This document shows positions 3,397 to 51,950 of a DNA stretch of 64,000 nt, one piece after another. The notes below the pieces were generated by a model that saw nothing but the letters and a program-made list of their open reading frames with translations, did no database searches and was not told where the DNA came from. Each line of letters opens with the position of its first letter. Positions within the stretch are counted from its first letter, which is position 1. The stretch covers positions 1 through 64,000 of the forward strand of contig JAFQQT010000043.1 of NCBI GenBank assembly GCA_017410455.1, written 5' to 3'. The translations under genes were made by a program, and so were the position numbers. This stretch comes from Clostridia bacterium. Its GTDB lineage: Bacteria > Bacillota > Clostridia > Christensenellales > Aristaeellaceae.

Positions 3397-6300
3397 ATGA
3401 AGCATGGTATCAAGTGGTTTGCGGCGTTGACGGTCGTGCTGGCGCTGCTGCTGTCCCTGGGGATGGCGGCGGCAGAGGGCGCTTATGGCGTGGCGACGCT
3501 CGATCGGGTGGCGGTGCGCAAAAAGCCCACCACCGAGGCAACGTACTGGTTCCGCATCGACACAGGCTTCGTCTGCGAGATCCTGGATATGGTGGAGGGC
3601 GATGGGGAGTACTGGTACAAGGTCAACAGCACCCACCCCGATCCTAATAAGGATAACACTTACATTGGCTATGTCCGCGCCAACGCCTTCCGTCCGATGA
3701 CGGCGGAGGAAACGCAGCAGTACCTGAACGGCGGGAGCGTGCCGGCGGCGACGGCCACCCCCACGGCCACCCCGACTTCGGGCAGCGCGAACATCCCCTC
3801 GGATGTGATCGGCGGCTTCGGCGGCAGCTTCGACGTGGGCATCATGGTTGGCGCGACGGCCACTCCCACGGCCACCCCGGCCTATAACCCCGGCGATGAG
3901 GAGGACGACTACGTCTCCGATGGCGTTGGCTCTGGCACCCCGGTGACCAACGCCACCGGCCAGGTGACCGCCAGCGGCACCAACTTCCGCACCGCCCCCA
4001 GCCTGGATGGCGGCCTGATCGGCAAGCTGAACGCCGGTACTGTGGTGGAGCTGGTGACCATTCCTGCGCAGGTGGGCAGCGACTACTGGTACCGCGTGCG
4101 CTACAATGGTCAGGAGGGCTACATCCAGTCCAACTACATCCGCGTGCTGTCCGTGGGCTACACCCCCACGCCTGCCCCCAGCGCCTATGGCTATGCCAAG
4201 CTGATCTACGACAGCGCGAACCTGCGCGACGCGCCCGGCGGCACCACCCGCGCCCAGTGGGAGGGCAAGGGGAGCCTGCTGCAGATCGTCGGTGCGGCGC
4301 AGTCCAAGAACGGCTACCTCTGGTATCCGGTCTACTATGGCGTTGACGGCGTCATCTACTACGTCCGCGAGGACGTGATCACCCTGATGGGCTACACCGG
4401 TGGCGCGACGGCCACTCCGGCCCCGGATTACTCCGGCGCATACGGCTATGTGAAGACCGTCGAGGCCGGCGTGAACCTGCGCCTCAAGCCCGGCGGAGAG
4501 ACCGTGGCGCAGGTGCCGCGCGGCGAGGTGCTGCCCTGCATCGGCGCGCCTGTCACCCCGGCGGATTCTGACTACACCTGGTACTACGTCCTCTACGGCG
4601 ACCTGCGCGGTTATCTGCGCGGCGACTGCGTGGTGGTCTGTGCGGCGGATGGCGGCTCCATTGTCGCGCCCGTCGTCACCCCCACCCCGACCCCGGAAGT
4701 GGGCAGCGCCTATGGCTACATCCGCCTGACCAAGAGCGGCGTCAACCTGCGCGACAAGCCCGGCGGAACCTCCCAGGTGCAGCTGCCCCGGGACCTGATC
4801 CTGCCCCTGACGGGCCCGAAGGTCTCCTCCGGCCGCTACGACTGGTACCCCGTGCGCACCCCCGATGGCCGCCTGGGCTACATCCGCAGCGACTGCATGG
4901 TGCTGTGCGACGCCAACGGCAACGAAGTTTCCGCCACGCCGACGCCCGTCCCCGGCGGCAGCACCGGCAGCACGCCCACCCTGTCCGCCTACGGCTATGT
5001 GCAGATCACGGCCAGCGGCACCAACCTGCGCGACAACGTCGCCGGCGACACCATCACCCAGCTGAAGAGGAACACCGTGTGGCCCATGTGCGGCCTGGCG
5101 GTCAACTATGGCCAGTACACCTGGTATCCCGTGCAGGCGGGCGCCTACACCGGCTGGGTGCGCGGCGACTGCGCCTTCAAGCTGTCCGCTTCGCAGGAGC
5201 TGAGCTACCTGCAGAACGGCACCATCCCCGATGAGACCCCCGTGCCCACCCCCACGCTGAGCAACTACGTCATCACCGTCCTGGACTATGTGAACCTGCG
5301 CGCCTCCGCCTCCCGCGATGCGGCTGCGCCCTACAAGGTCCGCACCGGCACGGTCATGACCTACACGGGCACCAAGACCGTGGGTACCAGCCTGTGGTAC
5401 CGCATTGTATATGAAGGAACGGAGCTCTGGGTGCTGGGCACCTGCGTGGAGGTCATGACCACCGCGGAGTACGAGCAGTGGCTGGGCAACAACCCCGGCG
5501 CGGCGCCTGAAGCCAGCACGGGCTACGTCATCACCGTCAAGAGCGGCGTGAACGTCCGCAGCACGGCGGGCGGCTCCACCATCGTGGGCCGGCTGAACCG
5601 TGGCACGGTCGTGCCCTACTACGGCTCCCTGGTGCAGGGCGGCAGCTACAGCTGGTACGCCATCCGCACGGGCGATGGCCTGGAGGGGTACATCCGCAGC
5701 GACATGGTCAAGACCTGCGACGCCTCGGGCAACATCATCGTGACTACCACGCCCACGCCCACCCCCGGCAGCAGCTCCGGCACGCAGCAGGAGGCGGTCT
5801 ACACCACGCTGCGCCTGGGCTCCACCGGCACGGCCGTGTATAACCTGACCTACGAGCTGAAGAAGCAGGGCTTCTACACCGGCGCGGTCACCAGCAGCTA
5901 CACCGAGGCTGTCCGCCAGGCGGTCATCGCCTTCCAGAGCGCCAAGGGCCTGGATGTGGACGGCATCGCCGGCAGCAAGACCCAGCATGCCCTCTACGGC
6001 ACCGTTGCCCCCGGCACGGCCGATCCCAACAACCTGACCTTCACCTTCTACCCGGTGGAGAAGATCGACTGGTTCACCGGCGGCATCCAGCAGCTGTGGG
6101 CCAAGGGCGCCAACTACAAGGTCTACGACGTGAAGACCGGCATCGTCTGGTGGGCGCACCGCTGGAGCGGCGGCTTCCACGCGGATATCGAGCCCCTCAC
6201 CGCGGCGGACACCGCGCGCCTGTGCCAGATCTACGGCGTGGATGATGCCCAGGACATCTGGGACAACAACCTCTGGCACCGCCGCCCCTGCCTGGTGACC

Positions 6301-6826: not shown

Positions 6827-9238
6827 ATGAAGAAGCTTCTGGCTCTCGTCATGGCGCTGTGCATGCTGTGCGGTGCTGCCATGGCTGAAGGAACTTCTGC
6901 CCAGGAAGGTGTTTACACCTACAATGACTACCTGACCCTGTCCCCCTCCAACTGGAATGAGCTGACCTACCAGGACAACAATGATACCGAGATCATGTCC
7001 TACATCGGCAGCTCCTTCTTCACCTACGACTTCAAGTTCGACGAGTACGGCGAGATCATCCCCGGCGAATTTGAAATCATCTACAGCGCCGCTACCGCGC
7101 TGGAGGATGTGACCGCCAAGTACGCCGAGGCCTGGAACCTGCCCGCTGACGGCAAGGGCTATGCCTGGAAGATCACCCTGCGTGACGATCTGAAGTGGGA
7201 GAATGGCGATCCCATCAAGGCTGAGGACTTCGTGTACACCATGTCCGAGCAGCTGAACCCCCTGTTCCAGAACTACCGCGCTGACTCCTTCTACGTTGGC
7301 TCCACCATCATCGCCAACGCTGCTTCCTATGTCAAGCAGGGCCAGAGCGTTGTGGAAGACAACTCTGCCACTGGCAAGTACACCGTCGCTGACCTGGTCA
7401 AGGGCGAAGACGGCGTGTACACCCAGCCCGACGGCGGCAAGATCTCCTTCGCGCTGACCACCGGCCTGGACTGGTGCGGCGGCAAGACCGTGACCCAGTA
7501 CTCTGCCTACCTGGATGCGGACGCCTTCGCTGCGCTGCAGGGTCTGGCTGACGAGAATGGCCTGGTTGCCGTGACCGATGACACCATCGCGCTGGTCACC
7601 AAGCTGATCGACACCGACAACTGGGGTCATGAGCCTCCGGAGAATGTCCCCTACTACATGGTTTACGAGTTCACCTACGGCGCCATGGACTTCTCCGAGG
7701 TCGGCATCTTCGTTGGCGACAACGAGTATGAGCTGGTCGTCGTTCTGGAGAAGGCTCTGGATCTGCTGAAGGAAGACGGCACCCTGTCCTACAAGGCTGC
7801 TTACAACTTCTCTTCTCTGCCCCTGGTTCACAAGGCCACCTACGAAGCCTGCAAGATCGCTCCCACCGAGGGCGTTGAGCTGTGGACTTCCAACTACAAC
7901 TCCAGCAAGGAAACCACCATGTCCTGGGGCGCCTACAAGCTGGAGTCCTTCCAGTCCGGCACCCAGTTCGTTCTGGTGAAGAACGAGAACTGGTACGGCT
8001 ACGGCCTGCCCGAGAACGAGGGCCTGTACCAGACTGATCGCCGCGTTGTCAACATCGTGAAGGACTGGAACTCTGCCTGGCTGATGTTCCTGGCCGGCGA
8101 AGTGGACGGCATCGGCATCGACGTGTCTGTTGCTGACGACTACAAGGGCTCTGAGCGCGCCTACTTCACCCCCTCTGACTTCGTGTCCTCCATGCAGCTG
8201 CAGTCCAACGTGACCGAGCTGAAGAACCGCGAGACCGAGGGCATCAACAAGTCCATCCTGGGCTATGCTGATTTCCGTAAGGCTCTGTCCCTGGGCATCA
8301 ACCGTGCCGACTTCACCACCCAGTGCACCACCTCTTCCAAGCCCGGCTTCGGCCTGTTCAACTCCATGCACTACTACGACGTGGCCAACGGCGGCGTGTT
8401 CCGTAACACCGACGAGGCTCGTCAGGTGCTGTGCAACATCTACGGCGTTGACGCTACCCAGTATGCTTCCCTGGAAGACGCTGTGGACGCCATCACCGGC
8501 TACAACCTGGATCTGGCCCGTGAACTGGTGACCAAGGCCTACAACGAGGCTCTGGCTGCTGGCGACATCAAGGAAACCGACATCGTGAAGCTGACCTTCG
8601 GCACCGGCTCCATCACTGAGGCCGTGACCCGTCAGGTGAACTTCATTGAGGACTCCTGGAAGAAGATGCTCGAGGGCACTCCCCTGGAGGGCCGCCTCGA
8701 GGTCGAAGTCCTGGACTTCGCTTCTGCCTGGGCTAACGACTTCCGTGCTGGCAAGTACGACGTCTGCATGGGCGGCTGGACCGGCGCTGCCTGGGATCCC
8801 GGCTACTTCCTGCTGGCCTACCTGGATTCCGGCTACATGTACTCCAAGGCTTGGGATACCGCCAACACCATGATGACCTTCACCATGAAGGGCGTTGCTG
8901 AGGACGGCGGCGACATCACCGAGACCATGGGTCTGCTGGACTGGTATGCCTGCCTGAACGGCACTGGCAAGTACGACTGGTCTTCCAACGGTCTGCCGCA
9001 GGAGAAGCGTCTGCAGCTGATCGCCGCGCTGGAGGAGCAGGTGCTGCAGGTGTACTACACCGTGCCGCTGGCCAACAGCTTCTCTGCTTCCATGCTGTCC
9101 TACAAGGTGGACTACATCACCTATGAGTACAACACCTTCATGGGCTACGGCGGATTCAAGTACATGACCTACAACTACGACGACGCCCAGTGGGCCGCCG
9201 CGGTTGCCGAGCAGAATGGCGAGCTGAATTACAAGTAA
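6827..9238 (+). CDS. Oligopeptide-type ABC transporter substrate-binding protein (SBP family 5)
   Basis: 803 residues with an N-terminal signal peptide (MKKLLALVMALCMLCGAAMA). Family-5 features include YAEAWNLPADGKGYAWKITL, LRDDLKWENGDPIKAEDFVY and the late ADFRKALSLGINRADF segment. It should capture peptides outside the cell and deliver them to the permeases encoded next. Two oddities: it is much longer than the usual 520-600 residues, with extra material between the early and late family motifs, and the signal peptide lacks a clear lipobox (cleavage at AMA-EG fits signal peptidase I), although binding proteins of monoderm bacteria are normally lipoproteins. Codon use is strongly biased, suggesting high expression. 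Followed by structured intercistronic DNA and then oppB-type and oppC-type genes. Confidence 0.9.
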   Translation: MKKLLALVMALCMLCGAAMAEGTSAQEGVYTYNDYLTLSPSNWNELTYQDNNDTEIMSYIGSSFFTYDFKFDEYGEIIPGEFEIIYSAATALEDVTAKYAEAWNLPADGKGYAWKITLRDDLKWENGDPIKAEDFVYTMSEQLNPLFQNYRADSFYVGSTIIANAASYVKQGQSVVEDNSATGKYTVADLVKGEDGVYTQPDGGKISFALTTGLDWCGGKTVTQYSAYLDADAFAALQGLADENGLVAVTDDTIALVTKLIDTDNWGHEPPENVPYYMVYEFTYGAMDFSEVGIFVGDNEYELVVVLEKALDLLKEDGTLSYKAAYNFSSLPLVHKATYEACKIAPTEGVELWTSNYNSSKETTMSWGAYKLESFQSGTQFVLVKNENWYGYGLPENEGLYQTDRRVVNIVKDWNSAWLMFLAGEVDGIGIDVSVADDYKGSERAYFTPSDFVSSMQLQSNVTELKNRETEGINKSILGYADFRKALSLGINRADFTTQCTTSSKPGFGLFNSMHYYDVANGGVFRNTDEARQVLCNIYGVDATQYASLEDAVDAITGYNLDLARELVTKAYNEALAAGDIKETDIVKLTFGTGSITEAVTRQVNFIEDSWKKMLEGTPLEGRLEVEVLDFASAWANDFRAGKYDVCMGGWTGAAWDPGYFLLAYLDSGYMYSKAWDTANTMMTFTMKGVAEDGGDITETMGLLDWYACLNGTGKYDWSSNGLPQEKRLQLIAALEEQVLQVYYTVPLANSFSASMLSYKVDYITYEYNTFMGYGGFKYMTYNYDDAQWAAAVAEQNGELNYK

Positions 9239-9492: not shown

Positions 9493-10518
9493 ATGTATAT
9501 GGCCAAATATATCGGCAAAAGAGTTGGTCTGATGATCATTACTTTTCTGATTATCTTTGTTACATGCTTTGTGCTAATCAAGCTTCTTCCCTTTGATGAC
9601 ACCGCTGGCTTCGGCCAGGATACGGAGAAGATCCGTGCGCAGTTCAGGGCCCGTGGTTATTATGACCCCATCCCGCAGCAGCTGGTGCAGTACCTGCGCC
9701 GCATCTTCAAGGATGGCGACTTCGGCATCGGCTTCAATATTCCGGAGTACCGCGGCCGCTATGTCTGGGATGTGTTCGTTGAGAAGCTGCCGCCCACGAT
9801 CCTGATCAACGTGTATTCATCGCTGATAGCGGTGCCGATCGGCATTGCGCTGGGCATCCTTGCGGCCCTGAAGAAGAATAAGTGGCAGGATCATGTGATC
9901 AGCACCGGCGTCATGGTGGTTATTTCCGTGCCGAGCTTTGTGTACGGTTCCCTGCTGCTGTTCCTGGTGTGCTTCAAGCTGGACCTGCTGCCGCTGAAGA
10001 TGGCTTCCTTTGCGGAAATCATCAAGGCATACCCGGCGGAGAACTATGTCTACACCCCCGGCTCTGCCAACTGGCCGCTGTTCTTCAACCAGAAGATGTT
10101 CGTGTCCATGCTGCCTGCGGTCTTCGCCATGAGCTTTGGCTCCATTGCCGGCTATGCCCGCTTCACCCGTGCGGAGCTGACGGAAGTGCTGACCAGCGAA
10201 TTCATGCTGCTGGCCCGTACCAAGGGTCTGACCAAGGCGCAGGCGACCACCCGTCATGCGCTGCGTAATGCGATGGTGCCGATCTTCCCGTCCATCGTTG
10301 GCGAATTCATCAGCGTGCTGTCTGGCTCCCTGGTGCTTGAGAAGATCTTCTCGATCCCGGGTGTGGGCGGTCTGTACCTGTCTGCGATCAATGCCAATGA
10401 CTATGACTTCTTTATGATGCTGTCCGGTTTCTACCTGCTGGTCGGTCTGGTTGCCAGCCTGGTGATTGACCTGTCTTACGGCGTCATCGACCCGAGAATC
10501 AGGATGGGGGCGAAGTAA
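9493..10518 (+). CDS. Oligopeptide-type ABC transporter permease, OppB/DppB family
   Basis: Start ATG 9493, nine bases after AAAGGAG (9477-9483); an in-frame ATG two codons later is an alternative. 341 residues with six predicted membrane segments. The first is at the N-terminus (GLMIITFLIIFVTCFVLIKLLPF), and the BPD_transp_1 core carries the EAA-type loop (ARTKGLTKAQATTRHALRNAMVP), which contacts the ATPases. Ends with the family-typical SYGVIDPRIRMG. Length is close to normal, with a short insertion around residues 175-195. The next permease gene starts on the base after the stop codon, so translation is probably coupled. Confidence 0.93.
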   Translation: MYMAKYIGKRVGLMIITFLIIFVTCFVLIKLLPFDDTAGFGQDTEKIRAQFRARGYYDPIPQQLVQYLRRIFKDGDFGIGFNIPEYRGRYVWDVFVEKLPPTILINVYSSLIAVPIGIALGILAALKKNKWQDHVISTGVMVVISVPSFVYGSLLLFLVCFKLDLLPLKMASFAEIIKAYPAENYVYTPGSANWPLFFNQKMFVSMLPAVFAMSFGSIAGYARFTRAELTEVLTSEFMLLARTKGLTKAQATTRHALRNAMVPIFPSIVGEFISVLSGSLVLEKIFSIPGVGGLYLSAINANDYDFFMMLSGFYLLVGLVASLVIDLSYGVIDPRIRMGAK

Positions 10519-12146: not shown

Positions 12147-14300
12147 ATGGATAAGAAATTGGAAGTAAGAGATCTGCAAATATCCTTCCGCACGCAGGGG
12201 GGAATTCTGAAGGCTGTCCGCAATATCTCCTTTAGCCTGAATAAGGGTGAAACCCTGGCGATCGTTGGTGAATCCGGCTCGGGTAAGTCCGTGACCAGCA
12301 AGGCAATCATGGGCATTCTGGCTGGTAACTCCATCGTCGAAGGTGGCGAAATCCTTTACGATGGTCAGGACCTTCTGAAGATCTCTGAGGATGATTTTCA
12401 CAAGCTCCGCGGCGACAAGGTCGCGATGATCTTCCAGGACCCCATGTCCAGCCTGAATCCGATCATGCGCATCGGTCAGCAGCTGACGGAGGCGATGATT
12501 CTTAAGGCCAGGACCGGCAAGCGCAATGCGAAGAAGGCTTTCAACAGCAAGCTGAAGCACCTGGGCCAGAACATCAATGCCGCCGACAGGGAGGCAGGCC
12601 GGGAGCGGACGGCGCAGGTGGCGGCGAAGCTGAAGACGTTTGAAACCTTCTGCATCTCTGCAACCAGGATCGAAGGCGCCTACAACGTGGCTTACGGCAA
12701 TGCCATGCAGCTGGATGTGGACCTGCAGGATGCGATCCTGATGCTCCAGAGGGGGAAGGCTTTCGACCCGGCTGCAGAGCTGAAGCGCTTCCGCCAGCTG
12801 TTCGCTGCGTCTGTCAATCCTTATGTGCTGACGAAGGATGCGGCGTATGACGAGTACATCGCCAGCCTGAATGTGCTGATTGCCCAGGGCAAGAAGGCGG
12901 ATCGTGCACAGACGCTTGAGGTGCTGGAAGCAGGCAGGACGATGATCAGCGCTGCGCTCAAGAATGAGAAGCCTGACTTCTTTGCGCTGGGCTACTACAA
13001 CATGGCCAACCCCGGCGAGAACCTGAGCACGCTCGCAGCCTCTGTTGACGAACTGAACGAGAAGACCCGCCGCTTCATGGACGAGAGCTTCATGGATGAC
13101 TTCATTGCCATGGCGGAGACGGGTGTGGCTTACTCGCACAGGCAGTCCGTGGAGGCTCAGGGGAAATGCCTGCCTGAGCTGAGGGAAGCGCTGGAGTACT
13201 TCAGCTCCGACATGGTGGAGCAGGGCAAGGCCTATGCGTACCTCAGGAGCCTGTCCGCCCGGGTGGGCAAGGCGATTGACCGCCTGCGCGTAAAGAAGGA
13301 AAGCGTGGAATATGTCTTCCACACGACCCTTGAGAAGGCCATTGACGATTACTTCAACGGCATCAAGCGCAACCCCATTGAGGAGAAGATTTACCTCCGC
13401 AACAAGAGGAAGTATGAGGCGATCGTTGCCAAGGGCCAGCAGCCTGACTGGGTGCTGCAGGCGCAGGTCATCGTCGATGTGGAGGAGAAGAAGAAGAACA
13501 TCTGCAGGGCGCTGGAGAACCTGATCGCCTATTACGAGCACCGCGTTGCCAATGGCGAGAGCTTTGACGCCCATGCCGGCGTGCTGGAGATTGTCGAGTT
13601 CCTCAAGGATCAGGCCTCCAAGCTGGTGGTGATGATGAACAAGCGCATCGCCAAGGCGAAGGCCATCAAGCTGATGGAGGAGGTTGGCATTCCTGAGCCG
13701 ACCACCCGCTTCAAGCAGTATCCCTTCGAGTTCTCCGGCGGCATGCGTCAGCGTATCGTGATTGCCATCGCGCTGTCTGCGAATCCGGACATCCTGATCT
13801 GCGACGAGCCGACGACCGCTCTGGACGTGACCATTCAGGCGCAGATCCTGGAGCTGATCAATAAGATCAAGAAGGAACGCAACCTGTCCGTGATCTTCAT
13901 CACCCACAACATGGGCGTTGTTGCCAACATGGCGGACAGAATCGCGGTTATGTATGCTGGCAAGATCGTTGAGTACGGCACGGCGGAAGAGGTCTTCTAT
14001 GAGCCTGCCCATCCCTACACCTGGGCGCTGCTGAGCAGTATGCCTGACCTGCATACCAAGGAGAAGCTGGAATACATCCCGGGTACTCCGCCGAACATGA
14101 TCTTCCCGCCCAAGGGCGACGCCTTTGCGCCCCGCAACAAGTATGCGCTGGAGATCGATTTCGAGCTCGAACCGCCGCTGTTTGAGATCACCCCCACGCA
14201 CGCTGCTGCGACCTGGCTGCTCCATCCCAATGCGCCCAAGGTTGAAATGCCCCAGTTGATCAAGGCCCGCATTGAGCGCTCGAAGAAGGAGAGGGAGTAA
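12147..14300 (+). CDS. Oligopeptide-type ABC transporter ATPase, OppD/DppD family, with about 385-residue insertion
   Basis: All ATPase motifs are present: Walker A GESGSGKS (41-48), Q-loop MIFQDPMSSLNP (Gln97), signature SGGMRQR, Walker B ILICDEPTTALD, H-loop ITHNMG, and the C-terminal oligopeptide-transporter extension, though its metal-cluster cysteines are not evident. At 717 residues it is over twice the usual 330. The excess is one block (about residues 120-505), rich in charged helices, inserted between the Q-loop and the SGG signature, in the helical subdomain that contacts the permeases. Removing it leaves a standard OppD (KARTG... then AIKLMEEVGIPEPTTRF). The reading frame is intact and codon use matches the neighbours, so this is not an assembly artefact on its face. 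Second ATPase gene follows one base after the stop. Confidence 0.92.
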   Translation: MDKKLEVRDLQISFRTQGGILKAVRNISFSLNKGETLAIVGESGSGKSVTSKAIMGILAGNSIVEGGEILYDGQDLLKISEDDFHKLRGDKVAMIFQDPMSSLNPIMRIGQQLTEAMILKARTGKRNAKKAFNSKLKHLGQNINAADREAGRERTAQVAAKLKTFETFCISATRIEGAYNVAYGNAMQLDVDLQDAILMLQRGKAFDPAAELKRFRQLFAASVNPYVLTKDAAYDEYIASLNVLIAQGKKADRAQTLEVLEAGRTMISAALKNEKPDFFALGYYNMANPGENLSTLAASVDELNEKTRRFMDESFMDDFIAMAETGVAYSHRQSVEAQGKCLPELREALEYFSSDMVEQGKAYAYLRSLSARVGKAIDRLRVKKESVEYVFHTTLEKAIDDYFNGIKRNPIEEKIYLRNKRKYEAIVAKGQQPDWVLQAQVIVDVEEKKKNICRALENLIAYYEHRVANGESFDAHAGVLEIVEFLKDQASKLVVMMNKRIAKAKAIKLMEEVGIPEPTTRFKQYPFEFSGGMRQRIVIAIALSANPDILICDEPTTALDVTIQAQILELINKIKKERNLSVIFITHNMGVVANMADRIAVMYAGKIVEYGTAEEVFYEPAHPYTWALLSSMPDLHTKEKLEYIPGTPPNMIFPPKGDAFAPRNKYALEIDFELEPPLFEITPTHAAATWLLHPNAPKVEMPQLIKARIERSKKERE

Positions 14301-40980: not shown

Positions 40981-42834
40981 GTGTCTGATCTTGTTGTGAT
41001 CGGCGGCGGCCATGCGGGCTGCGAGGCGGCCCTGGCGGCGGCCCGTATGGGTATTGATACGCTGCTGCTGACATTGAATATGGACGGCGTGGCGCTGATG
41101 GCCTGCAACCCCGTCATCGGCGGCAGCGCCAAGGGGCATCTGGTGCGCGAGCTGGATGCCCTGGGCGGCGAAATGGGCCTGGCCATCGACGATACCTTCC
41201 TGCAGAGCCGCATGCTCAATACATCGAAGGGCCCGGCGGTGCATGCCCTGCGCGCCCAGGCGGACAAGCAGGAGTATCAAAATCGCATGCGCACGGCCCT
41301 GTTCACCCAGCAGCGGCTGACTGTCCGCCAGGGGGAGGTCTCCGCCATCGACGTGGAGGCGGGCCGGGTCGTTGCCGTCCACACGGCCAGCGGCCAGCGC
41401 ATTCCCTGCCGGGCGGCCATCGTGGCCAGCGGTGTATACCTGCGCAGTGATATCATCATCGGCGAGAGCATTACCCCCGGCGGCCCCCAGGGCCTGATGA
41501 GCGCGCCCCATCTGTCCGCGAGCCTGGAGGAGATCGGCTTCCCCCTGCGGCGCTTCAAGACCGGTACGCCCGCCCGCATCGACGTGCGCACCATCGACTT
41601 TGACGAGATGACGCCCCAGCCCGGGGACGAGCCGGTGGTGCCCTTTTCCTTCCTGACGGAGAAGCAGCTGGTCAACACCCATCAGTGTTACCTGACCTGG
41701 ACAACCCCGGAAACCCACGACATCATCCGCGCCAACCTGCACCGCGCGCCGCTGTATTCCGGCAAGATCCACGGCGTCGGCCCGCGCTACTGCCCCTCCA
41801 TCGAGGACAAGATTGTCAAATTCGCCGACAAGGAGCGCCATCAGGTGTTCCTGGAGCCGGAGGGCATGAAGAGCCACGAATGGTACGTCCAGGGCATGTC
41901 CACCAGCCTCCCGGAGGACGTGCAGTGGGAGATGTACCGCAGCGTTCCTGGCCTGCGTCGGGCGGAGCTGACCCGGCTTGCCTACGCCATCGAGTACGAC
42001 TGCATCGACAGCCGCCAGCTTCGTCCCACGCTGGAAAGCCTGCATGTGCGCGGTCTCTACTTCGCCGGGCAGATCAATGGCACCAGCGGCTACGAGGAGG
42101 CCGCCTGTCAGGGCCTGCTGGCGGGCATGAACGCCGCCCTGTCCATCCAGGGCCGGGAGGGCCTTGTCCTCACCCGCGACATGGCCTACATCGGCGTCCT
42201 CACCGATGACCTGACCACCAAGGGCACGGACGAGCCCTACCGCATGATGACCAGCCGCGCCGAACATCGGCTGAAGCTCCGCCAGGACAACGCCGACCTG
42301 CGCCTGACGCGCATCAGCCATCAGCTGGGCCTGGCCACCGACGAGCGCATGGAGCGCACGGAGCGCAAGATCCGAGAGACGGAAAGGCTCCTGGGCGTCC
42401 TGCGGGCGACCCGCTACACCCCCGGCGCGGACTTTTCCCGTTGGCTGACGGCTCACGGTCAGCCTGAGGCCGCCGCAGGGCTGTCCGCTGAGGAACTGCT
42501 GCGCCGCCCGGACGTCCGCCTCGCCGACCTGTGTGAAATGTCCCCGGAGCTGGATATCCCCGACGGCCAGGCCAGAGAGCAGGTGGAGATCGCCGTGAAG
42601 TACGCCGGTTACCTGGACCGGCAGGACGCGATGATCCGCCGCGCCCGCCAGATGGAGGAGACCCTGCTGCCGGAGGACGTCGATTATGCCGCCGTCACCG
42701 GCCTGCGCATCGAGGCCCGGCAGAAGCTGGAGAAGCAGAAGCCCCGGAGCCTGGCCGCCGCCAGCCGCATCCCCGGCGTGTCTCCGGCGGACGTGGCGGT
42801 GCTGATGGTCTGGCTGGAAAAGACAAGAGGCTAA
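40981..42834 (+). CDS. mnmG: tRNA uridine-5-carboxymethylaminomethyl modification enzyme MnmG (GidA)
   Basis: Start chosen at GTG 40981: GGAGGGG (40969-40975) lies five bases upstream and the protein then begins directly with the FAD-binding strand (SDLVVIGGGHAGCEAALAAARMG). 617 residues, normal for the family. Other signatures: MACNPVIGGSAKGHLVRE, KTGTPARID, GVGPRYCPSIEDKIVKF, and FAGQINGTSGYEEAACQG. With MnmE it installs the cmnm5 group at wobble uridine 34 of several tRNAs. In many Firmicutes mnmE-mnmG-rsmG sit together near the origin; here mnmG stands without mnmE or rsmG. Confidence 0.96.
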   Translation: MSDLVVIGGGHAGCEAALAAARMGIDTLLLTLNMDGVALMACNPVIGGSAKGHLVRELDALGGEMGLAIDDTFLQSRMLNTSKGPAVHALRAQADKQEYQNRMRTALFTQQRLTVRQGEVSAIDVEAGRVVAVHTASGQRIPCRAAIVASGVYLRSDIIIGESITPGGPQGLMSAPHLSASLEEIGFPLRRFKTGTPARIDVRTIDFDEMTPQPGDEPVVPFSFLTEKQLVNTHQCYLTWTTPETHDIIRANLHRAPLYSGKIHGVGPRYCPSIEDKIVKFADKERHQVFLEPEGMKSHEWYVQGMSTSLPEDVQWEMYRSVPGLRRAELTRLAYAIEYDCIDSRQLRPTLESLHVRGLYFAGQINGTSGYEEAACQGLLAGMNAALSIQGREGLVLTRDMAYIGVLTDDLTTKGTDEPYRMMTSRAEHRLKLRQDNADLRLTRISHQLGLATDERMERTERKIRETERLLGVLRATRYTPGADFSRWLTAHGQPEAAAGLSAEELLRRPDVRLADLCEMSPELDIPDGQAREQVEIAVKYAGYLDRQDAMIRRARQMEETLLPEDVDYAAVTGLRIEARQKLEKQKPRSLAAASRIPGVSPADVAVLMVWLEKTRG

Positions 42835-48215: not shown

Positions 48216-48719
48216 ATGAAAAAGTGGTTCTGGCTGGCGGCGGCGGTGGTGATCGCCGATCAGCTCGTCAAGGGGCTCAGCATTGGCCTGGCGGGGGATG
48301 TGACGCTCATCCCCGGCGTGCTGCGCTTCACCTACGAGGAGAACACCGGCATGGCCTTCAGCATGCTCAGCGGCCACACATGGCTGCTGGGGGTGGTATC
48401 CGCCGCAGCCATCGTGCTGGGCTGGTGGGTCCTGCGGGCCTTCCGGCTGGGGCCGGTCAGCCGCATCGCCGCCATGCTGATGCTGGGCGGCGCGGTGGGC
48501 AATATGATCGACCGCTTCCTGCGCGGGTATGTGGTGGATATGTTCGAGGTGCTGTTCGTCCGATTTGCGGTGTTCAATGTGGCGGATGCGGCGCTGACGG
48601 TGGGTGCCGGGCTGATGGCGGCGTCGCTGCTGCTTTGTCCCGGTGAATGGACTGAAAAGCATGGAGGCACGAAGGATGGAAAATCAGATGCAGGCGCAGC
48701 GGATCGAATCGACGGGTGA
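48216..48719 (+). CDS. lspA: Lipoprotein signal peptidase (signal peptidase II)
   Basis: 167 residues with four membrane segments. The family blocks are AAAVVIADQLVKG, LRFTYEENTGMAFSML (with the conserved Asn), LMLGGAVGNMIDRFLRGYVVDM and FAVFNVADAALTVG; the catalytic Asp pair is in GNMIDR and NVADAA. It cleaves prolipoprotein signal peptides before the lipidated Cys. The C-terminal 25 residues (HGGTKDGKSDAGAADRIDG) are extra and overlap the following pseudouridine synthase gene by 44 bp, the widest gene overlap in the window. lspA followed by rluD is a common order. Confidence 0.95.
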   Translation: MKKWFWLAAAVVIADQLVKGLSIGLAGDVTLIPGVLRFTYEENTGMAFSMLSGHTWLLGVVSAAAIVLGWWVLRAFRLGPVSRIAAMLMLGGAVGNMIDRFLRGYVVDMFEVLFVRFAVFNVADAALTVGAGLMAASLLLCPGEWTEKHGGTKDGKSDAGAADRIDG

Positions 48720-49596
48720 CGGCCGCCGTCTGGACGTGCTGCTCTCGGAGGCCTCCGGGCTGACCCGCAGCCGCATCGCGACCCTCGTGGAGGAGGGGCA
48801 GGTCACCGTGGACGGCAAGCCCGCCGCCAAGGCCGGGCTGAAGACGAAGGCTGGGCAGACCATCGTCCTGACGGTGCCCGCGCCCAAACCCGCCGCCCCT
48901 GAGGCCCAGGACATCCCGCTGACCATCCTCTACCAGGACGATGACCTCGCCGTGGTCGTCAAGCCCTGCGGCATGGTGGTGCACCCGGCGGCAGGCAACG
49001 AGGATGGCACGCTGGTCAACGCCCTGCTGCACCACCTGGACAGCCTGGGTGGCATCGGCGGCGAGCTGCGCCCCGGCATCGTCCACCGGCTGGACAAGGA
49101 CACCAGTGGCCTGCTGCTGGTGGCCAAGAACGACGCATCCCAGCTGGCGCTTTCCGGGCAGCTGTCTGCCCGCACGATGGAGAAGCACTACCGCGCGCTG
49201 GTGGAGGGCAACCTCCGCGAGGACGCGGGCCGCATCGAGGCCGCCATCGCCCGGAGCAAGAAGGACCGCAAGAAGATGGCCGTGGACGAGGAGGGACGCG
49301 AAGCCATCACCGAATGGACGGTGCTGGCGCGCGGCCGCGGCGTGACGCTGCTGGACGTGCACATCCTCACCGGGCGGACGCATCAGATCCGCGTCCACAT
49401 GCGCCACATCGGCCACCCGGTCTGCGGCGACCCCATCTACGGCAGCCAGAAGGGCGCGAAGGTGCCCCGGCTGATGCTCCACGCATATTCGCTGACCTTC
49501 ACCCACCCGCGTTCCGGCGAGCGGCTCACCTTCACGGCGGAGCTGCCGGAGGCATTCCGGCGGGGGATGAGGAGCAATGGGGCGGAAGAAGAGTAA
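48676..49596 (+). CDS. RluA-family pseudouridine synthase (RluD-like)
   Basis: Start ATG 48676, preceded by GGAGGCACGAAGG. 306 residues: S4 RNA-binding domain about 15-75 (GRRLDVLLSEASGLTRSRIATLVEEGQVTVDGKPA) and catalytic domain about 85-290 with the active-site Asp in GIVHRLDKDTSGLLLVAKN, plus HYRALVEG and LTGRTHQIRVHMRHIGHPVCGD. It should convert specific 23S rRNA uridines (positions 1911/1915/1917 for true RluD) to pseudouridine; the exact target is inferred. Overlaps lspA by 44 bp, so expression is coupled. Confidence 0.94.
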   Translation: MENQMQAQRIESTGDGRRLDVLLSEASGLTRSRIATLVEEGQVTVDGKPAAKAGLKTKAGQTIVLTVPAPKPAAPEAQDIPLTILYQDDDLAVVVKPCGMVVHPAAGNEDGTLVNALLHHLDSLGGIGGELRPGIVHRLDKDTSGLLLVAKNDASQLALSGQLSARTMEKHYRALVEGNLREDAGRIEAAIARSKKDRKKMAVDEEGREAITEWTVLARGRGVTLLDVHILTGRTHQIRVHMRHIGHPVCGDPIYGSQKGAKVPRLMLHAYSLTFTHPRSGERLTFTAELPEAFRRGMRSNGAEEE

Positions 49597-49645: not shown

Positions 49646-50419
49646 TTATTGCCCCACCCGCACATACTCCACCACGCCCTCGGCCACAGCCTCTGCCAGC
49701 CGGGCCTGATAATCGCTGTCCAGCAGCAGCTTTTCCTCGGCGGCGTTGGAGATGAAGCCGCACTCCACCAGCACCGAGGGCACGTCCAGCTGCAGGATGA
49801 AGTAGTCCCCCGGCAGGGCGGCGCGCTCCTTGGCGGGCTGCAGCTCCGCGATCAGCGCGGCCTGGATGCACCCGGCCAGCAGCCGCCCGCTGTCGCTGCC
49901 CTCGCGGTAGAACACCTGGGGCCCGGATTCGGCGCGGCTGCGGTACTCGTTCATGTGGATGGAGATGACCATGTCCGCGCCGCCCTGCACGGCCATATCG
50001 ATGCGCGCCTGCATGTCCTGCCGTTTCATGGTCAGCCCGGCGGGACGGGGGGTGCTGGTCAGATCCACGTCCTCCCGGCGGGTCATCAGCACGGTGGCGC
50101 CGCGCCGGGTGAGGGCCTCCTCGACTTTCAGGGCCACGGACAGGTTCAGCTCCTTCTCCCATGTGCCGCTGTCCCGGGCGCGGGCGCCGCCGTCGTAGCC
50201 GCCGTGACCGGGGTCGATGAGGATGGTCAGCCCGGAGAGCGGCCCCGTCGGCGCGGGGGATGCGGTGGCGGCGGCTCCGGTGGAGGCCTCCGGCGCAAGG
50301 GATGCCCTCCGCCAGGCGGATACGGCGGTCAGCCCGCCAAAGAGCACCACCAGCGCCGTGAGCAGCGTGACGCAGCGTTCGGCTACGGGACGGGGGATGG
50401 TCGGTTTCTTCTCGTTCAT
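49646..50419 (-). CDS. cwlD: N-acetylmuramoyl-L-alanine amidase, CwlD type (Amidase_3)
   Basis: 257 residues. One N-terminal membrane segment or uncleaved signal (CVTLLTALVVLFGGLTAVSAW), a Thr/Ala linker, then the Amidase_3 domain: zinc ligands in LIDPGHGGYDGG (His), WEKELNLS (Glu) and ISIHMNEY (His), and the catalytic Glu in VLVECGFISN. CwlD removes peptide side chains from muramic acid, the first step in making muramic lactam in spore cortex, so it supports a spore-forming host. The distant relation to other amidases means a vegetative wall role is possible. It lies next to a DnaA-box cluster. Confidence 0.9.
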   Translation of the reverse strand: MNEKKPTIPRPVAERCVTLLTALVVLFGGLTAVSAWRRASLAPEASTGAAATASPAPTGPLSGLTILIDPGHGGYDGGARARDSGTWEKELNLSVALKVEEALTRRGATVLMTRREDVDLTSTPRPAGLTMKRQDMQARIDMAVQGGADMVISIHMNEYRSRAESGPQVFYREGSDSGRLLAGCIQAALIAELQPAKERAALPGDYFILQLDVPSVLVECGFISNAAEEKLLLDSDYQARLAEAVAEGVVEYVRVGQ

Positions 50420-50555
50420 GGTTCATACCTCCGCGCTGGAAGGTATGCGCACGGGTGCCGGTTCATCCTCCTTTCACGATTGTATACAGTGCTATTCAGT
50501 GTTGCAGCGCATGATGAACGGAGTTGTAAACCGTATTCACAATTGTAAAAACTGG

Positions 50556-50726
50556 TTATGCACAGCCAAAGACGGCCGTCATCCACAGTTTCCACAAGGT
50601 TATCCACAAACCCACAGGCGAATCTTGCGGATATTTCGCGGGGTCGCGGGAAGTTATCCACACTGTCCACAGGTTATCCACAGCATTCATCCACATGTGA
50701 ACAGCTGTGGAAAGCCCTGTGGATAA
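50556..50726. other. DnaA-box cluster, candidate replication origin or DnaA-titration site
   Basis: Within 171 bp: three perfect TTATCCACA on the plus strand (50600-50608, 50654-50662, 50674-50682), one perfect copy on the minus strand (50718-50726), TTATGCACA (50556-50564, fits TTATNCACA), two one-mismatch TCATCCACA (50579-50587, 50687-50695), plus several weaker TTTCCACA/TGTCCACA sites. Chance occurrence of this density is negligible in GC-rich DNA. The sites lie in an otherwise gene-free 760-bp gap (50420-51179). No dnaA, dnaN or rpmH is in the window, and flanking genes point toward the site rather than away, so origin function is likely but not proven. Confidence 0.75.
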
Positions 50727-50892
50727 CTCAAAAAGGCGGAAACCGGATGCGCGGCGGGTCGGAAATGATGCATAAAAATGCACGTTCGCGCATGTTCGGG
50801 CGCGAAAAGCTGTTACAATTGGTCATATCCGGCACCGTGCGGCACAGGAGCGAAAAATTTTCGGAAAAGCGAAAATGGGAATCCCCAAAGAA

Positions 50893-50920
50893 AAACGGGC
50901 CTGCGGTTGCAGACCCGTCA
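50893..50920 (-). repeat. 28-nt hairpin repeat, copy 1 (terminator-like)
   Basis: An ACGGGCCTGC-GGTT-GCAGACCCGT hairpin within a 28-nt sequence that is repeated exactly at 51141-51168. On the minus strand copy 1 is followed by TTTTT, so it can act as a terminator. Confidence 0.85.
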
Positions 50921-51140: not shown

Positions 51141-51168
51141 AAACGGGCCTGCGGTTGCAGACCCGTCA
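51141..51168 (-). repeat. 28-nt hairpin repeat, copy 2 (terminator-like)
   Basis: Exact copy of 50893-50920, placed 12 bp after the stop of the minus-strand SH3 gene, as expected for its terminator. A short T-run (TTTG) follows on the minus strand. Confidence 0.8.
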
Positions 51169-51179
51169 TGAGAGTGAGT

Positions 51180-51950
51180 TCAGCGTTCCATGTTCGTCAC
51201 GCCCGAGGAGATCCAGCCGTAATCGCCATCGACGCAGATGTAGTACCAGACCTTGCCGGTGTTGCCCACGCGGCTGTCGAGGATCTCGTACCACTGGCCT
51301 TCGCGCACGCCGGTGACGTAGCTGTACTGGGTGCCGGGGCCGGAGCGGACGTTGGCGGTGCTGGCGATGATCATGCACCAGTCGTTGCCAGAGGGCGTGG
51401 CGTTGGGGTAGGTGTCCTCGCCATAGTACTTCCAGCCGCCGGCGAGCATGTCGATGGGCACCCAGACGCGGACGTTTTCGCAGGGCCAGGAGCTGTTGGT
51501 GTCGATGAGGGCGAATTCCTCCTCGACCTCCAGGATGCTGCAGTTGGTTTCCCGGACGAGGTACCAGTCGTCGTAGTAGGCGTGGCCGTAGCCGGGGCCG
51601 TCGTAGCCATAGCCGCTGTCGATCAGGTAGGTGTACTCCAGCACGCGCTCTTCGGGCACGGCGGAGAGGTCGACGTTCAGGCGCTGGGCGCCGGTGTAGG
51701 CGCGGTAGATGCGCCCGCCGGCGGTGAACTCCACCTGCACCCACCAGATGCGGTTCGTCGCGTCCCACACCTTGGTGTGGACGGTGACCTGCTGGCCGGC
51801 GGAGAGGAAGGTGCCGGGCTCGGTGTAGCCGGTGCCGGGGCCGGTGCGGGTGGCCAGGGGCATCTTCGTGGTGGCGGTGGTGGCGGCCAGGGCGGGCGCG
51901 CAGGAAAGCAGCAGGCAGAGCGCGAGCAGCAGGGCGGTGATGCGTTTCAT
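51180..51950 (-). CDS. Secreted SH3-domain protein
   Basis: 256 residues. Signal peptide MKRITALLLALCLLLSCAPALA, then an SH3b unit (TRTGPGTGYTEPGTFLSAGQQVTV...WWVQVEF), a middle Tyr-rich beta region (YTYLIDSGYGYDGPGYGHAYYDDWYLVRETNCSI) and a second SH3b unit (ASTANVRSGPGTQYSYVTGVREGQWYEI...WYYICVDGDYGWI). A wall- or glycan-binding role is likely; no enzyme part. The CAPA stretch in the signal is not a good lipobox. It lies 29 bp after the next secreted-protein gene and may share its transcript. Confidence 0.85.
   Translation of the reverse strand: MKRITALLLALCLLLSCAPALAATTATTKMPLATRTGPGTGYTEPGTFLSAGQQVTVHTKVWDATNRIWWVQVEFTAGGRIYRAYTGAQRLNVDLSAVPEERVLEYTYLIDSGYGYDGPGYGHAYYDDWYLVRETNCSILEVEEEFALIDTNSSWPCENVRVWVPIDMLAGGWKYYGEDTYPNATPSGNDWCMIIASTANVRSGPGTQYSYVTGVREGQWYEILDSRVGNTGKVWYYICVDGDYGWISSGVTNMER

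Follow-up and report, generated by a model that had tools for sequence, protein, structure and literature searches.

A DnaA-box array kept upstream of the spore-cortex amidase gene cwlD in Christensenellales, a candidate extra-origin regulatory element

Introduction

Clusters of DnaA boxes outside the chromosomal origin of replication (oriC) are, to our knowledge, described from few model species, and their occurrence has seldom been traced through evolution. Bacillus subtilis possesses six such extra-origin clusters (Okumura et al. 2012, as cited in the accessible text of PMC5295017 and PMC13220808), and the same portion of PMC5295017 doubts that they matter much. According to the accessible text of PMC4447404, DnaA of B. 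subtilis is furthermore an activator of sda and an apparent repressor of several genes. Here, we analyze a dense array of DnaA boxes in a genome of the order Christensenellales that an earlier note, made from the DNA alone, had put forward as a possible oriC. The window, i.e., the whole stretch of DNA analyzed, comprises bases 1-64000 of the 85-kb contig C30, which belongs to a 3.30-Mb assembly of 93 contigs.

Results

A consensus scan of the window revealed seven DnaA boxes with at most one mismatch, four of them perfect, within the 171 bp from 50556 to 50726 (Table 1). Perfect boxes (TTATCCACA) start at 50600, 50654, and 50674 on the plus strand and at 50718 on the minus strand, while boxes with one mismatch are located at 50556 (TTATGCACA) and at 50579 and 50687 (both TCATCCACA). 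Further boxes with two mismatches were recognized by eye, in register with the others, at 50588 (GTTTCCACA), 50663 (CTGTCCACA), and, on the minus strand, 50706 (CTTTCCACA). The whole 64-kb window contains ten boxes with at most one mismatch, versus about five expected, and seven of the ten fall inside the array. Among 60 windows simulated with a first-order Markov model, the densest 171 bp held one box in 57 runs and two boxes in three runs, as compared to seven in the real sequence. Scan and simulations agree with the earlier note, which had described four perfect boxes, three on the plus and one on the minus strand, as clustered in these 171 bp. The assembly as a whole contains 39 perfect boxes, versus 10 occurrences of a reversed control, and at least two perfect boxes within about 300 bp are found in five places, namely the cwlD array, one place on contig C7, and three on contig C87.

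The array contains two triads of boxes arranged head-to-tail, with 54 bp from the perfect box of the first to the first box of the second. This distance is exact in seven of the 11 box-bearing loci of the genus, amounts to 52-53 bp in three, and was not seen in one. In an alignment of the 11 genus loci, identity in 20-bp bins is 0.80-0.95 at the triads (0.82 and 0.95 for the first), 0.53-0.65 in the spacer between them, and 0.70-0.72 at the last boxes; conservation is higher at the boxes than in the inter-triad spacer. Head-to-tail boxes two to three bases apart favour DnaA oligomers. The DnaA of this genome carries GNRDHTTVLHG, which we take to be the canonical domain IV signature, as expected of a box-binding domain. 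DnaA binding at the array is nevertheless a prediction, which leaves room for the proposal that the sequence is kept for another protein or another reason and is not bound by DnaA. We consider this highly improbable, as the units with the highest conservation conform to the DnaA consensus while the inter-triad spacer varies.

The array starts 137 bp upstream of the spore-cortex amidase gene cwlD (start 50419, minus strand), which was not mentioned in the earlier note. It is gene-free, as that note had stated, and lies between the cwlD start and the gene at 51180-51950, both on the minus strand. The claim that the genes on both sides converge on the site did not hold: it is the rluD-like gene and cwlD that converge, near 49.6 kb, and the array is situated between tandem minus-strand genes, upstream of cwlD. 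Two further statements were accurate, that mnmG is about 8 kb away (its end at 42834 is at a distance of 7.7 kb) and that neither dnaA nor dnaN is near the site, these genes being on contigs C46 and C87, respectively. In the genus members viewed, the far side of the array is occupied by genes other than the secreted-protein gene of the window. The interval between the array and this next gene also contains an identical 26-base hairpin-like repeat at 50895-50920 and 51143-51168, 248 bp apart.

Table 1. Coordinates of the array, its parts, and neighbouring features in the window
Feature	Position	Strand	Evidence or remark
DnaA-box array	50556..50726	+	seven boxes with at most one mismatch, four perfect; simulations
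First triad	50579..50608	+	starts 50579, 50588 (two mismatches), 50600 = 0, 9, 21
Second triad	50654..50682	+	starts 50654, 50663 (two mismatches), 50674 = 0, 9, 20
Extra box TCATCCACA	50687..50695	+	box scan
Inverted box pair	50706..50726	-	CTTTCCACA (two mismatches) and TTATCCACA, starts 12 bp apart
cwlD-like N-acetylmuramoyl-L-alanine amidase	49646..50419	-	TIGR02883, E 5.1e-56, 189.8 bits, below the 221.55 cut-off
RluA-family pseudouridine synthase (rluD-like)	48676..49596	+	TIGR00005; convergent with cwlD
Predicted secreted protein (by eye), far-side gene	51180..51950	-	gene calls
GTTCG-N5-GTTCG element	50784..50798	+	beyond the boxes; putative binding site
CGAAAA-A-TTTTCG inverted repeat	50851..50863	.	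CCCCAAAGAA comes next; by eye, several genus members have similar sequence

A search for CwlD in 60 relatives gave no match in nine genomes and weak matches only in eight (best E value 1e-15 or worse, taken as other amidases); 43 loci from 22 families were counted as clear orthologues. Of these 43, 30 have at least two boxes in the 600 bp preceding cwlD, representing 16 of the 22 families and distributed over the genus (11/17), other genera of the family (4/5), and other families of the order (15/21). The remaining 13 loci have no box at all in the upstream stretch. By comparison, at least two boxes were found downstream of cwlD in 2 of 43 loci and in 0.5 to 1.1% of shuffles. A further control with 30 mnmE genes, all from the same family, gave two of 60 flanks (0/30 upstream, 2/30 downstream), two flanks being shorter than 600 bp. 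The additional named loci L073-L076 all carry boxes (4/4); L071 and L072 are the loci of G009 and G007 and were not added to the 43. Named cwlD loci are the best 80 of 509 candidate loci, and two boxes upstream were detected in five of the 74 more distant ones among these 80, versus 1.4% of shuffles, although some of the 74 may belong to the order. A blastp comparison among reading frames of at least 70 aa within 0.9-3 kb, which may miss weak homologues, gave no far-side counterpart at any other of the 43 loci for 12 of the 19 box-bearing loci outside the genus; three share tsaD, and a few have others in common. The array is attached to the cwlD upstream region, often with differing far-side genes. 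Its retention there across relatives suggests that DnaA regulates cwlD, is held in reserve at this site, or both.

Within the family, seven of 22 loci lack boxes, and five of these form one clade (96/93) in a tree that is based on a single short protein and has eight weak forks. Members of this clade carry mnmG upstream of cwlD at 0.3-0.5 kb (three loci) or at 1.05 kb with another reading frame in between (two loci); because mnmG sits so close to cwlD, a rearrangement may have removed the element. The three-box core, allowing up to two mismatches, was sought in four of the six box-less genus members; none was found in G004 and G014, and one copy each in G006 and G012, both on dnaN contigs and the latter beside a ferritin-like gene.

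The box-bearing loci of G057, G056, and G059 (same order) have their boxes downstream of tsaD and upstream of cwlD. The order tsaD-cwlD also exists without boxes in G036, G038, and G051, and tsaD of the window genome is located elsewhere (C47). We considered tsaD as the real anchor, in analogy to gcp of B. subtilis, presumably a synonym of tsaD, and rejected it, with boxes in three of six tsaD-adjacent loci and 27 box-bearing loci without detected tsaD. The presence of spoIVA in 45 of the 60 genomes, including the window genome, suggests that the lineage is probably spore-forming and that CwlD is probably a true spore-cortex amidase. The element is dispensable, as 13 of 43 loci are box-less though 12 of those 13 genomes possess spoIVA.

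Skew was calculated in 5-kb bins, for this genome (G000) on contigs C7, C30 (to 84 kb), C46, and C87 of the 93. On the window contig, 9 of the 10 bins ahead of the array and all 7 from the array on are positive, i.e., the sign is kept. On C87, bins of -0.121, -0.131, and -0.034 are followed by 12 of 12 positive bins, with the minimum at about 14 kb. This contig encodes dnaN (12516-13619, minus strand), with six boxes with at most one mismatch just upstream (13703-14032), while dnaA on C46 has one perfect box upstream. The true oriC is very probably at about 14 kb of C87, by the dnaN boxes, and the array very probably is not the chromosomal oriC, because skew does not change sign at the array, has its minimum at the C87 dnaN, and both dnaA and dnaN are on other contigs. 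The origin proposal of the earlier note is contradicted by just this finding of a skew minimum elsewhere, beside dnaN.

Relatives gave a more mixed picture. In G016, all 8 bins as far as the dnaN boxes have negative skew and three of the four bins beyond them are weakly positive, and 13 of the 14 bins surrounding its cwlD array are negative. Skew turns at dnaN were also apparent in other families, namely in G042, where the cwlD array is 10 kb off, in G039, whose cwlD is on another contig, and, on the basis of one short bin, in G058; in G042 and G058 the turn is away from the cwlD cluster. The sampled dnaN contig of G012 and the data for G041 were noisy, and G057 had no clear turn within the 20 kb taken. 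In favour of the array functioning as oriC or as a second active origin, G007 has negative skew in 35 of the 41 bins preceding that of the array and values near zero in the last four (17 kb), with no clear sign change on its dnaN contig, and in G052 array and dnaN are 1.4 kb apart, too close for skew to separate them. Box density and ordered spacing are origin-like as well. Yet such an origin is extremely improbable, given the kept sign in G000, the negative surroundings in G016, and the turns at dnaN in G000, G016 (weaker), G042, G039, and G058 (by one bin). Moreover, the array has no AT-rich stretch inside (AT fraction in 40-bp steps 0.42-0.53, as compared to 0.68 directly before it at 50520-50559) and is missing upstream of 13 of 43 cwlD genes. 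For origin finding it follows that a dense box cluster is not necessarily oriC.

Several other box clusters were observed. On C7 (L034), eight boxes occupy 9626-9891, flanked by a gene for a low-molecular-weight phosphatase and by the 3' end of mnmE, with parA and parB close by. Seven boxes at the same spacing recur on C129 of G009, and 15 of 17 genus loci have no such cluster at mnmE; retention in only 2 of 17 led us to reject this cluster as an equally tethered sister of the cwlD array. On C87 (L035), one cluster (8224-8337) falls within the coding sequence of addA at a distance of about 5.4 kb from oriC, with addA-internal counterparts in G007 (C11, 112953-113049) and G016 (C25, 34064-34155). 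A second one (4982-5089) comprises seven boxes upstream of a gene assigned as ferritin-like by a weak family match and is about 8.6 kb away from oriC; clusters at this gene exist also in G007, G016, and G012, the dnaN segment of G012 being inverted relative to the cluster. G007 additionally carries six boxes on one strand (C11, 72092-72209), which are about 45 kb from dnaN and adjoin a reading frame. Five-box clusters directly downstream of cwlD, after truA-rplM-rpsI-like genes (names by eye), are present in Anaerovirgula (L082, 6621-6748) and in a Tissierellales genome (L126, 6674-6827).

The further clusters of this genome, one next to mnmE on C7 and three surrounding oriC on C87, are in accordance with a pure DnaA reservoir of the B. 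subtilis type, which would delay initiation and for which cwlD would merely be a long-standing neighbour. The distance between cwlD cluster and dnaN is about 1.4, 8.6, 22, and 57 kb in four of the 38 genomes in which both genes were detected, namely those that carry them on a single contig, a sharing that selects short distances, and the clusters of L082 and L126 are downstream of cwlD. In addition, B. subtilis without its six clusters initiates early, strongly only if all six are removed, as stated in the accessible text of PMC5295017 and PMC13220808. A titration site could, however, sit anywhere, yet the array is upstream of cwlD in 30 of 43 loci, and of 17 genus loci only 2 retain the larger mnmE cluster. 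We therefore regard a pure reservoir as unlikely, if not strongly so. A reservoir function may be part of the answer; alone, it would leave the attachment to cwlD in 16 families unexplained.

Beyond the boxes, GTTCG-N5-GTTCG occurs as a single copy in each of eight of the 18 genus genomes, by its coordinates always within 100 bp of the cwlD array. Three box-bearing genus loci are without it, and the alignment bin at the element has 0.75 identity. A LexA site was discarded as an explanation, as the repeat is direct and not inverted (by eye). Ordered boxes with conserved flanks (GTTCG-N5-GTTCG, CGAAAA-TTTTCG) that could bind an accessory protein would also suit a datA- or DARS-like site altering the nucleotide state of DnaA. 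This seems quite improbable: the GTTCG element, searched within the genus, is present in only 8 of 18 genomes whereas the boxes reach other families, and B. subtilis is without datA, DARS, and IHF according to the accessible text of a 2026 review (PMC13220808).

Discussion

With little more than even confidence, we interpret the array as an extra-origin DnaA-binding regulatory element that is attached to the cwlD upstream region and also holds DnaA off oriC. From the observed boxes, their order, spacing, and conservation, and the unchanged skew sign, we infer DnaA binding, an effect on cwlD and its direction, and any titration as follows. The perfect boxes would be occupied by DnaA, which would extend along the packed head-to-tail boxes into an oligomer located about 140-300 bp ahead of the cwlD start. 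Expression of cwlD, which belongs to late spore-cortex formation, would then depend on how much DnaA is present or which state it is in, most likely through repression in replicating cells, in analogy to most DnaA targets named for B. subtilis. The array would also keep several DnaA molecules from oriC.

Attachment to cwlD favours regulation. A positional role is favoured by the extra clusters around oriC and by the downstream clusters of L082 (Anaerovirgula) and L126 (the Tissierellales genome), whose placement would fit such a role better. Regulatory and positional roles are inseparable by sequence. Counting against the proposed regulatory element are the box-less cwlD loci (13/43) and the upstream pairs in only 5 of 74 distant named loci (best 80 of 509 candidates), and against cwlD as anchor the boxes of three box-bearing loci that are also downstream of tsaD, a possible other anchor.

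It is intriguing, if doubtful, to propose that DnaA directly gates cwlD across an order of spore-forming Clostridia via one ancient cis element that might also serve as a DnaA sink. If true, spore-cortex maturation would be tied to the replication state of the chromosome. The array upstream of one sporulation gene in 16 of 22 families poses a direct question, namely whether the replication initiator regulates late spore formation. Our literature search retrieved no paper joining 'DnaA box' with cwlD or with Christensenellales, and none combining dnaA, cwlD, sporulation, and replication initiation. Of the genes compared below, sda is linked to sporulation.

The array shares with datA and DARS of Escherichia coli that these are non-coding DnaA-box loci outside oriC, but E. 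coli is phylogenetically remote. It recalls the B. subtilis DnaA region between gcp and ydiF in that the boxes of G057, G056, and G059 adjoin tsaD; unlike that region, tsaD of the window genome is on C47, and G036, G038, and G051 are box-less. Boxes upstream of a gene are also a feature of DnaA-regulated promoters of B. subtilis, which include sda, ywlC, vpr, trmE-noc, and others in the accessible text of PMC4447404; here, in contrast, the putative target is a cortex amidase gene, and the word cwlD is absent from the main text of that paper, which lists the top DnaA regions of B. subtilis. With the extra-origin clusters of B. subtilis, finally, the array has in common several boxes in a short stretch outside oriC, and it differs from them in its location at cwlD and in that the role of DnaA is here a predicted one.
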